A program made the position numbers and the translations under genes. Source: Armatimonadota bacterium (GTDB taxonomy: Bacteria; Armatimonadota; Hebobacteria; CAIYQO01). From it: DNA of 59,359 nt. Below, in pieces: positions 38,616 through 44,172 of the stretch; position 1 is the stretch's first letter; each line of letters begins with the position of its first letter. The DNA lies in assembly GCA_029553475.1 (NCBI GenBank), contig JAKPKV010000023.1, positions 1-59,359 of the forward strand, read 5' to 3'. Under the pieces are notes generated by a model. That model ran no database searches, had not been told where the DNA came from, and saw nothing but the letters and a program-made list of their open reading frames with translations.

Positions 38616-38831
38616 ATGTCGGAACAGCGACCTCGCCAGAAAGTGAATATTGACCGCCTGACGCGCCGCATGGGGAAATACGCCCTGGTGGTGGCGGTGT
38701 CCCAGCGGTCCCGCGAGTTGAAGGAGCAGTCCTACCGCCGCGGCGAGCGCGATCAATCGAACCTGATCGGCCACGCCCTGTACGAGCTCTTCGACGGCAA
38801 AGTGAAGCTCATCGAAGACGAAGAGGCTTAG
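38616..38831 (+). CDS. rpoZ: RNA polymerase omega subunit
   Basis: A 71-residue omega subunit, which helps assemble and stabilise the polymerase by latching onto beta'. The core 'GKYALVVAVSQRSRELKEQ' followed by the helix 'NLIGHALYELFDGKVKLIED' matches the family, at the short end of its length range. The ATG at 38616 has GAGGAG upstream and a consensus promoter further upstream. It is followed 81 bases later by dnaJ in the same direction. Confidence 0.8.
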   Translation: MSEQRPRQKVNIDRLTRRMGKYALVVAVSQRSRELKEQSYRRGERDQSNLIGHALYELFDGKVKLIEDEEA

Positions 38832-41804: not shown

Positions 41805-42725
41805 ATGGGGGAGGCCCTGCGCATCGGGATCGTCACGGCGTATCTGGAGCAGGACTGGCATAGCCAGCAACTGGTGGCCGCCGTGGCGCGCATCGCGGAG
41901 CCGTGCATCATCCGTCCGGACCAATTGGGCGCCGCGGTGATGCCCGATGGCGTATCGGTGCTGGCGCAGGGGATAGACCTGACAGCGCTGGACGGGTTCA
42001 TCCTGGCGCGGGGATTCGGTGACCGGGGCAATTCGGATTTCCTGGTGCCGGTCTACCAGATGCTGGAGCGCACCGGGGCGGTGCTGGTGAACAGCATCAA
42101 CGCGCTGCTGGTGGCCATTGATAAATTTGAGACGAGTGTCCGGTTGCGGCAGGCCGGGGTGGCGACGCCGAAGGTCGTGGTGGCGCAGGATGTCGAGCTG
42201 GCGCGCGGTGTGCTGCGCGAGTGGGGCCGCGCGGTCGTGAAGCCGCTGTTCGGCTCGCTGGGGTTGGGCATTGAGCTGGTGGAGGATACGCCGGGGGGAT
42301 ACGCGCTGTTGCCGGTGCTGCTGGAGCGGTTCGGCGCGATTTACCTGCAGGAGTTCGTGCCCACGCCCGGCCGGGACATCCGCGCCTTCGTGGTGGGCGA
42401 CCGCGTGGCGGCGAGCATCTACCGGGTGGCGGCGCCGGGCGGGTGGCGGACGAATATCGCCCAGGGCGGGGCGCCGGAGCGCTGCCGGCTGGACGCGGCG
42501 ACGGCCGGGCTGGCGGTGGCGGCGGCGCGGGCGGTGGGCCTGGATTATACGGGGGTGGATCTCCTGGAGGGACCGGAGGGTCCGTCGGTGATCGAAGTGA
42601 ATGGCAACCCGTTGTGGCAGGGTGTGCTGGATGCGACGGGGCGGAATATGGCAGAGGAGATTGTGGCCTGGGTGATCACGCGGATCACGCAGACCGCCGC
42701 GAAAGGGGGTGAAGGTCGTGCCTAA
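41805..42725 (+). CDS. RimK-like ATP-grasp ligase
   Basis: A 306-residue ATP-grasp enzyme of the RimK/LysX/MptN group, which join a carboxylate to an amine (often glutamate) or ester-link side chains, via acyl phosphate. Visible are the pre-ATP-grasp domain, 'VNSINALLVAIDKFETSVRL' (95-114), the glycine loop 'VVKPLFGSLGLGIELVE' (144-160), 'YLQEFVPTPGRDIRAFVVGD' (180-199) and the Mg site 'VDLLEGPEGPSVIEVNGNP' (251-269). GAGGGAGG precedes the ATG at 41805. The last 8 bases overlap the start of the first KGG gene, so the two are translationally coupled. The acceptor may be one of the five adjacent KGG proteins; that is inference. Confidence 0.88.
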   Translation: MGEALRIGIVTAYLEQDWHSQQLVAAVARIAEPCIIRPDQLGAAVMPDGVSVLAQGIDLTALDGFILARGFGDRGNSDFLVPVYQMLERTGAVLVNSINALLVAIDKFETSVRLRQAGVATPKVVVAQDVELARGVLREWGRAVVKPLFGSLGLGIELVEDTPGGYALLPVLLERFGAIYLQEFVPTPGRDIRAFVVGDRVAASIYRVAAPGGWRTNIAQGGAPERCRLDAATAGLAVAAARAVGLDYTGVDLLEGPEGPSVIEVNGNPLWQGVLDATGRNMAEEIVAWVITRITQTAAKGGEGRA

Positions 42726-42912
42726 GTCAGCGAAAGGCGACATGACCGTGCGGGAGGCCGGCCATAAAGGCGGGCAGCTCGGCGGCAAGAAGGGTGGCGA
42801 GACGACCCTGGAACGGTATGGGCCGCAGTTCTATGAGGAGATCGGCAAGAAAGGCGGACAGAAGGTTCGCGAATTGATCGCCGAAGGGAAGAAGGCCCAG
42901 CGGAAACGATAA
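42718..42912 (+). CDS. KGG-repeat small protein 1
   Basis: A 64-residue basic protein of the KGG (con-10/GsiB-like stress-induced) type. The GTG at 42718 is chosen because AAAGGGGGTGA ends seven bases before it. The common opening is 'GDMTVREAGHKGG', then one full repeat 'ERYGPQFYEEIGKKGGQKVR', and the shared tail 'ELIAEGKKAQ'. Hydrophilic throughout, no signal peptide. In Bacillus GsiB and fungal Con-10 such proteins accumulate in stress or sporulation. The overlap with the ATP-grasp gene ties it to that enzyme. Confidence 0.8.
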   Translation: MPKSAKGDMTVREAGHKGGQLGGKKGGETTLERYGPQFYEEIGKKGGQKVRELIAEGKKAQRKR

Positions 42913-42979
42913 CGTGCCGGCGAGGAAGACACGTGGCGGCAGCATCAATGCCAACATCGCTGTAGAGGAGGTGACATCA

Positions 42980-43222
42980 ATGCCTGAGAAGTCGAAAGGC
43001 GCCATGACGGTGAGTGAAGCGGGCCGCAAGGGTGGCGAGACGACATCCGAGCGCTATGGCCACGAGTTCTACGAGGAGATCGGCAAGAAAGGTGGCCAGA
43101 AAGGCGGACAGACGACCTTTAAGCGCTACGGCCCCCAGTTCTACGAGGAGATTGGCCGCAAGGGCGGTCATAAAGTCCGCGACCTCATCCAGGAGGCCAA
43201 GCGGGCGCGGGGTGAGATGTAA
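42980..43222 (+). CDS. KGG-repeat small protein 2
   Basis: An 80-residue KGG protein. GAGGAGGTGA lies upstream of the ATG at 42980. Opening 'GAMTVSEAGRKGGETTSERY', two FYEEIG-K/R-KGG units and the tail 'KVRDLIQEAKRARGEM'. The frame is open back to 42914, but the strong ribosome site favours the shorter form. The repeats alternate aromatic-acidic (FYEE) and basic (RKGG) blocks. Part of the five-gene array after the ligase. Confidence 0.8.
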   Translation: MPEKSKGAMTVSEAGRKGGETTSERYGHEFYEEIGKKGGQKGGQTTFKRYGPQFYEEIGRKGGHKVRDLIQEAKRARGEM

Positions 43223-43303
43223 CGCCCCGAACGTGCACGGAACGGGTCGCGGCCAGGGATGGCCGCACCCCCGTGAAATAACCACCATGAGGAGGTGACA
43301 ACC

Positions 43304-43558
43304 ATGGCGAATGCCAAAAAGCGGAGTGCATCCGGTGAGATGACCGTCCGCGAAGCGGGACGCAAAGGCGGCGAGACCACGGCCGAACGGCACGGGCACG
43401 AATTCTATGAAGAAATCGGCCGCAAAGGTGGGCAAAAGGTCCGCGACGAATACGGCATCCCCTTCTACGAGGAGATCGGGCACAAAGGCGGGCAGAAAGT
43501 CCGCGACCTGATCGCCGAAGGCAAGCGCGCCCTGGGCAGCGGCCGGCGGTCGTCATAA
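43304..43558 (+). CDS. KGG-repeat small protein 3
   Basis: An 84-residue KGG protein. GAGGAGGTGA precedes the ATG at 43304. Opening 'SGEMTVREAGRKGGETTAER', then FYEEIGRKGGQKVRDEYGIP, then FYEEIGHKGGQKVRDLIAEG and a short basic tail ending GSGRRSS. Two FYEEIG units, the first followed by KVRDEYG rather than KGGQTT, so the order of blocks differs between paralogs. Confidence 0.8.
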   Translation: MANAKKRSASGEMTVREAGRKGGETTAERHGHEFYEEIGRKGGQKVRDEYGIPFYEEIGHKGGQKVRDLIAEGKRALGSGRRSS

Positions 43559-43601
43559 GCCCGCGTGCGCGCGCAGGGATGTGAGAAGGAGGTGACGTGA
43601 G

Positions 43602-43775
43602 ATGCCAAAGCCAGGGAACAAGGGACAAATGACGGTGAGTGAGGCCGGGCGCAAAGGCGGGCTGAAAGTCCGTGACGCCTATGGCGTGGAGTTCTATGAA
43701 GAAATCGGCAAGAAGGGGGGCCACAAAGTGCGCGAGCTCATCGAAGAAGGCAAGCGCGCCCGTGGTCAGCGCTAA
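43602..43775 (+). CDS. KGG-repeat small protein 4
   Basis: A 57-residue KGG protein, the shortest of the set. AAGGAGGTGA precedes the ATG at 43602. It opens 'MPKPGNKGQMTVSEAGRKGG', has 'KVRDAYGVEFYEEIGKKGG' once, and the tail 'HKVRELIEEGKRARGQR'. Read by direct translation; all five family features are present, so I regard it as a real gene. Confidence 0.78.
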   Translation: MPKPGNKGQMTVSEAGRKGGLKVRDAYGVEFYEEIGKKGGHKVRELIEEGKRARGQR

Positions 43776-43887
43776 CCCCTTGCCGTGATGACAGCCGCCG
43801 CGCGGGCTCCCCACCGCGCGGGGACCACAGGGCCGACGTCCCGGAACCGCCGTCGGCGGTTCCGGGATCTGGTGAAAGGAGGGCATC

Positions 43888-44172
43888 ATGGCGAACAAGG
43901 GCGATATGAGCGTCAGTCAGGCCGGCCGCAAGGGCGGCAAGAAGACGGCGGAAACCCACGGCCACGACTTTTACGAGTCCATTGGCCGCAAAGGCGGGAC
44001 GAAGGTGAAAGAGACCTACGGCCACGAGTTCTATGAAGAGATCGGCCGCAAGGGGGGCACCACCGTGCGCGATGAGCGCGGCCCGCAGTTCTACGAGGAG
44101 ATCGGGCACAAGGGTGGGCAGAAAGTCCGCGACCTGATCGCCGAGGGGAAACGCCGCCTGGGCAACCGGTGA
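43888..44172 (+). CDS. KGG-repeat small protein 5
   Basis: A 94-residue KGG protein, the longest: opening 'MANKGDMSVSQAGRKGGKKT', then three units (FYESIGRKGGTKVKETYG, FYEEIGRKGGTTVRDERG, FYEEIGHKGGQKVRDLIAEG) and a basic tail ending LGNR. AAAGGAGGG precedes the ATG at 43888. It ends the array, 66 bases before the terminal side of the convergent histidine kinase gene. Confidence 0.82.
   Translation: MANKGDMSVSQAGRKGGKKTAETHGHDFYESIGRKGGTKVKETYGHEFYEEIGRKGGTTVRDERGPQFYEEIGHKGGQKVRDLIAEGKRRLGNR

Follow-up and report, generated by a model that had tools for sequence, protein, structure and literature searches.

The window, which is the whole 59,359-nucleotide stretch of DNA that was analysed, carries on its plus strand a gene for an ATP-grasp ligase followed by an array of five genes for small KGG-motif proteins, designated here KGG1 to KGG5. 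The features of this locus are the following:

41805 to 42725, plus strand: RimK-family ATP-grasp ligase, 306 amino acids, from ATG at 41805 to TAA at 42725
42702 to 42711, plus strand: Shine-Dalgarno-like sequence AAAGGGGGTG for KGG1, inside the end of the ligase gene; from its sequence, a candidate for translational coupling
42718 to 42912, plus strand: KGG1, 64 amino acids, GTG start; single FYEEIG at 42829-42846
42980 to 43222, plus strand: KGG2, 80 amino acids; FYEEIG at 43067-43084 and 43139-43156
43304 to 43558, plus strand: KGG3, 84 amino acids; FYEEIG at 43403-43420 and 43463-43480
43602 to 43775, plus strand: KGG4, 57 amino acids; FYEEIG at 43692-43709, in a repeat without Ser or Thr
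43888 to 44172, plus strand: KGG5, 94 amino acids; FYESIG at 43969-43986, FYEEIG at 44029-44046 and 44089-44106

The end of the ligase gene and the start of KGG1 overlap by exactly 8 bases, with AAAGGGGGTG lying shortly 5' of the GTG, and each of the four further paralogs, KGG2 to KGG5, has its own strong ribosome site (AGGAGGTGA or AAAGGAGG). Both features had been described in an earlier sequence-only reading of this DNA and were recovered here as described. Coupled translation with the same 8-base overlap recurs in the Anaeromyxobacter-type loci L265 and L266. Between positions 38616 and 46909 of the window, an omega subunit-like gene and DnaJ are followed by an unknown minus-strand gene (DUF1444 here), the ligase and the KGG array and then, on the minus strand, by a histidine kinase and a response regulator. 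This order is common to another locus (L012), which has one extra KGG gene.

All five KGG proteins of the window score above the cut-off of the Pfam KGG family PF10685 (25.7 to 55.4 bits, cut-off 20.4), and all remain below that of LEA_5, PF00477 (18.7 to 39.3 bits, cut-off 40). Together they contain nine FYxxIG units, of which eight are the FYEEIG described in the sequence-only reading and one is FYESIG (KGG5, 43969). The element TTxER, which the same reading had placed in the repeats, is present in KGG1 to KGG3 and absent from KGG4 and KGG5, with the second repeat of KGG2 carrying TTFKR. The shared opening MTVxEAGRKGG is likewise found only in part, given that MTV is present in KGG1 to KGG4, but KGG5 begins with MSVSQ and KGG1 has AGHKGG. 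The proposal that this opening resembles a leader was not sustained, because MTVxEAGRKGG, together with a C-terminal KV(R/K)xLIExGK tail, also occurs in KGG proteins of genomes without the ligase. The leader motif of graspetides, Phhx(1,2)h (PMC8939145), is absent from the KGG proteins of the window by inspection. The structure predicted for KGG5 consists of low-confidence helices (pLDDT 54), which agrees with the disorder reported for KGG proteins, known as stress proteins (PMC7161692).

The ligase scores above the cut-offs of Pfam RimK, PF08443 (96.6 bits, cut-off 21), and of TIGR00768, the RimK family of alpha-L-glutamate ligases (176.1 bits, cut-off 143.4), and its relatives within the clade reach 157 to 196 bits with the latter. 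The best NCBIfam score is obtained with MptN, NF040720 (224 bits), which is below the equivalog cut-off of 350. Scores also fall below the cut-offs for LysX/ArgX, TIGR02144 (154.5 bits, equivalog cut-off 275.6), for the ATP-grasp protein of the GAK system, TIGR04356 (130 bits, cut-off 300), for the 30S S6-glutamate ligase RimK, NF007764 (90 bits, equivalog cut-off 331) and for the graspetide maturase, TIGR04187 (22 bits, cut-off 350). The H4MPT enzyme Mch (PF02289) was found in none of 28 ligase genomes, with archaeal positive controls detected, and for this reason an MptN-type cofactor role of the ligase is unlikely.

Enzymes of the RimK family couple an amino acid to a carboxylate that they first activate; for LysX and ArgX, this carboxylate is the side chain of a Glu in a small partner protein. 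The AlphaFold model of the ligase (pLDDT 90) has RimK and ArgX-LysW as its nearest folds, and the structures nearest to it include RimK-RpsF (5zk6) and ArgX-LysW (3vpb), both of them ligases with protein substrates. The ATP/Mg ligands K107, K146, D252, E264 and N266 are conserved and invariant in the ligase clade. In Pseudomonas RimK, the contacts with poly-glutamate include R64, R189, N262 and R8 (PMC10092738). The counterparts of the first three (R69, R193 and N266) are invariant in the ligase, and that of R8 is not conserved.

The co-occurrence of ligase and KGG genes in relatives, on which the sequence-only reading had made its proposal depend, was found in every case that could be read: KGG genes adjoin the ligase in 34 of the 34 clade genomes with readable flanks, and no ligase lacking KGG genes turned up among them. 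The genomes belong to Armatimonadota, Myxococcota, UBP13 and one 'Deltaproteobacteria' genome (MAG). This recurrence means that the pairing is not due to chance. When 291 Armatimonadota genomes were searched with a profile of the ligase, the matches fell into a group at about 390 bits or above, which also includes an interrupted copy in G028 at 289 bits, and a group at 177 bits or below. KGG neighbours are present for every member of the high-scoring group and in none of the loci fetched from the low-scoring one. The interrupted copy (L209, G028:C98) has a frame change and an internal TGA beside an intact KGG array, and either is a pseudogene or reflects an error of assembly.

A scan of named genomes located the pairing also in Anaeromyxobacter soli, A. 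terrae, UBP13 and the 'Deltaproteobacteria' MAG, and searches by phylum found the ligase in 13 Anaeromyxobacter-type, 8 other Myxococcota and three UBP13 genomes, with a KGG array wherever flanks were readable (in G450 the locus is split across contig ends). In a tree of 62 ligases, all 29 that are linked to KGG genes form one clade (SH-aLRT 99), with one label change, and none of the 33 outgroup ligases has KGG neighbours. In one locus (L030) the KGG gene lies upstream of the ligase and not downstream, indicating that the link does not reflect a single fixed gene order. No third conserved component was seen among the neighbours, which differ by lineage: glnD in Myxococcota, a CRP-type regulator in the Armatimonadota family f5, and DnaJ and a histidine kinase in the window. 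The regulator of family f5 is located directly 5' of the ligase (L022:5148-5807, L029:3435-4094).

KGG proteins are far more widespread than the ligase, occurring in 50 of the 291 Armatimonadota genomes and in 106 of 195 from Myxococcota; a longer KGG profile detects more genome copies than a short one. The ligase depends on the KGG genes and not the reverse. In Myxococcota, KGG arrays with and without the ligase occupy the same site between glnD and a Sua5-type gene, which indicates that an orthologous array acquired or lost the ligase, and makes these arrays a ready natural experiment. The order glnD (PII uridylyltransferase), KGG array, Sua5/YrdC-type gene was observed in L255, L256, L269, L265, L266 and L260, and from this neighbourhood a link of nitrogen signalling to KGG expression is possible. 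Often first in the Myxococcota arrays is a KGG paralog whose N-terminal tail is rich in Lys and Ala and resembles histone H1 (L260:4982-5479, L261:5315-5644, L206:6122-6424 and L225-L228), and the motif of this paralog is FYSEIG, FYQEIG or FYQAIG, not FYEEIG.

Comparison of the repeats shows a coupling to the ligase at the level of single residues. The skeleton of the repeat (GG, G, F, Y, I, G, K, GG) is fixed irrespective of the ligase, and most of the columns that are neither skeleton nor Glu vary irrespective of it. The pair of glutamates in FYEEIG behaves differently. With the ligase, Glu-Glu is found in 59 of 62 Armatimonadota repeats (95%), versus 1 of 41 (2%) without it, where FYEAIG, FYERIG, FYQRIG or FYKEIG appear instead; in Myxococcota the counts are 107 of 120 (89%) versus 64 of 142 (45%). 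These comparisons include some incomplete genomes and were made with a KGG profile built from ligase-linked proteins, whose bias, if any, would be towards Glu-Glu in the genomes without ligase. All 36 UBP13 repeats accompanied by the ligase have Glu-Glu (100%), as do nine of ten (90%) in the genome G294, and five relatives of G294 that lack the ligase, in a third phylum, carry FYSEIG, GYAEIG or FFSEIG, with Glu-Glu absent. In terms of entropy, the Glu columns of Armatimonadota go from 0-0.4 bits with the ligase to 2.0-2.3 bits without, and those of Myxococcota from 0.45 to 1.9 bits (second Glu) and from 0.45 to 0.75 bits (first Glu), the loss of constraint being clearest in the second Glu column in both phyla.

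The dependence was also examined by means of an RpoB tree of 57 genomes, obtained by a quick search, from which seven independent pairs with and without ligase were taken on well-supported branches. On average 6.5 of these contrasts go in the same direction and 0 in the opposite one, which gives p 0.016 with the Glu-Glu threshold at 0.8 and p 0.031 with it at 0.7, the motif having been noticed first in Armatimonadota and then counted in the other phyla, and the thresholds set afterwards. The association has exceptions. Myxococcus-type genomes without ligase still have Glu-Glu in three of four repeats, which means that the motif can persist without the enzyme, and the genome with the most divergent ligase (G349) has it in only three of eight. 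In G056, which is of the same family as four ligase genomes and where no ligase was found, two of the four readable repeats are broken (ED and EK), its KGG array beginning at a contig end. Elsewhere in the genome of the window, an unlinked KGG gene (L270, G000:C139:4669-4953) has three FYEEIG repeats, and its ortholog in G001 (L271) has kept all three.

Given that the ligase is never found without KGG genes and that near-constancy of Glu-Glu is confined to genomes with the ligase, the KGG proteins are very probably its substrates, as the sequence-only reading had suggested, and the ligase probably attaches an amino acid to them. One competing explanation is that the two are only co-expressed, with the ligase making a small-molecule or poly-amino acid protectant and the KGG proteins being a parallel output of a desiccation or stress response. 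From work by Kino and colleagues in 2011 (cited in PMC4431377), E. coli RimK alone can reportedly make poly-alpha-glutamate, which would suit such a role. The description of KGG proteins as stress proteins (PMC7161692) also fits. Nevertheless, co-expression does not predict a coupling at the level of residues that is centred on two Glu columns, nor that in four lineages the ligase is never found away from KGG genes. It could survive if the KGG proteins bind the product of the ligase through FYEE, and we consider it unlikely.

The sequence-only reading had listed several fates for the substrates, and of these the addition of an amino acid, e.g., glutamate, fits the enzyme family best. Ester crosslinks through Thr-Thr, for which it had pointed to the residues of the repeats, find no support in the repeats themselves: there is no conserved Ser or Thr column, and at least 16 distinct Glu-Glu repeats contain neither residue, including the single repeat of KGG4, GGLKVRDAYGVEFYEEIGKKGG. 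Crosslinks between Thr or Ser and Glu were rejected on these grounds and because the TIGR04187 score is far below its cut-off. Another candidate is a crosslink of the isopeptide type, in which the ligase would join the Glu of FYEEIG to a Lys, e.g., that of the KGG motif a short distance further along, within or between repeats, in the manner of graspetide ligases that form lactams. Any chemistry that proceeds through an activated Glu side chain would suit the coupling to Glu-Glu, the fold is related to that of the graspetide ligase PsnB (TM about 0.75), and 95% of the distinct ligase-linked repeats contain the KGG Lys. The conservation of this Lys is, however, the same whether or not the ligase is present, and in some Glu-Glu repeats its place is taken by Met. 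Together with the lack of the graspetide leader motif, the low TIGR04187 score and the position of the ligase in the RimK/MptN/LysX branch, this makes an isopeptide crosslink quite improbable.

The closest solved structures being those of RimK, including its complex with RpsF, glutamates might instead be added at the C-terminus of the KGG proteins, as RimK does on S6, with FYEE acting as a docking motif. Among the 53 ligase-linked KGG proteins the last residue is of eight kinds, most often K, R, G or S, and the Glu-Glu pair persists in almost all internal repeats, which is more than one docking site would need; tailing of this kind is distinctly unlikely.

The coupling between Glu-Glu and the ligase is most simply read as identifying the FYEEIG Glu side chains as the carboxylates that would be activated. 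The reading that we favour, with somewhat better than even confidence, is that of a two-component modification operon, in which the ligase would attach an amino acid, most likely glutamate, to these side chains. The ligase would be a dedicated modifier of the KGG proteins encoded on its own mRNA and of unlinked KGG paralogs. It would activate the side-chain carboxylate of a FYEEIG Glu in each repeat as an acyl phosphate, which would then be joined to the amino group of one or several amino acids, by analogy with the enzyme family most likely glutamate. The product would be a side-chain (poly)glutamylated form of a disordered and very hydrophilic stress protein. The analysis itself establishes the conserved pairing, the single ligase clade, the coupling of the ligase to Glu-Glu and a RimK/ArgX-type fold with conserved catalytic residues, whereas the modification as such, the Glu of the pair at which it would take place and the amino acid added are inferred.

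More tentatively, at least four bacterial lineages may share a multi-site, tunable glutamylation of the FYEEIG side chains of desiccation-type KGG proteins, comparable to the polyglutamylation of tubulin. If so, it would alter the charge and the water-binding of these proteins, and the KGG motif family would gain its first modifying enzyme. A ligase that tracks two specific glutamates may reveal the first post-translational modification of this family.

This system is apparently undescribed: among 5.4 million open-access papers none was found to report a pairing of ATP-grasp and KGG genes, a recent survey of graspetides makes no mention of KGG, and for the known KGG/GsiB/YciG members no modifying enzyme was found in the open literature searched. 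The partner proteins in the window are otherwise ordinary members of this stress protein family (PF10685), with 20-residue repeats, and differ in that ligase-linked members keep FYEEIG nearly constant. Graspetides such as microviridin and plesiocin also have an ATP-grasp enzyme beside multi-repeat precursors, but their enzymes belong to another branch, and their leader motif and conserved Ser/Thr-acid core have no equivalent in the KGG system. The likeness to MptN, the tetrahydromethanopterin:glutamate ligase, resides in the best NCBIfam score and in the archaeal MptN-type proteins that are the nearest relatives outside the clade, set against a score below the equivalog cut-off, the missing Mch and the KGG genes that are always adjacent. 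LysX and ArgX with LysW offer an ATP-grasp ligase that acts on the Glu gamma-carboxyl of a small partner, ArgX-LysW being the second-best fold match, but the LysX model scores below its cut-off and the KGG proteins are multi-repeat, multi-copy and devoid of Cys. With RimK and S6 (RpsF) the ligase shares the family (TIGR00768), the fold (TM 0.84), a dedicated protein substrate and the conserved ATP/Mg residues, and differs in its score (90 bits versus 331), in having a disordered KGG array as partner, and in a candidate site that is an internal Glu-Glu and not the C-terminus. What would be new, judging from the sequences, is the pairing of a protein ligase of the RimK family with a substrate family that is itself new, disordered and multi-repeat. 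If this is true, it provides an example of a RimK-type ligase acting on disordered stress proteins, and the role of the KGG repeat becomes testable.
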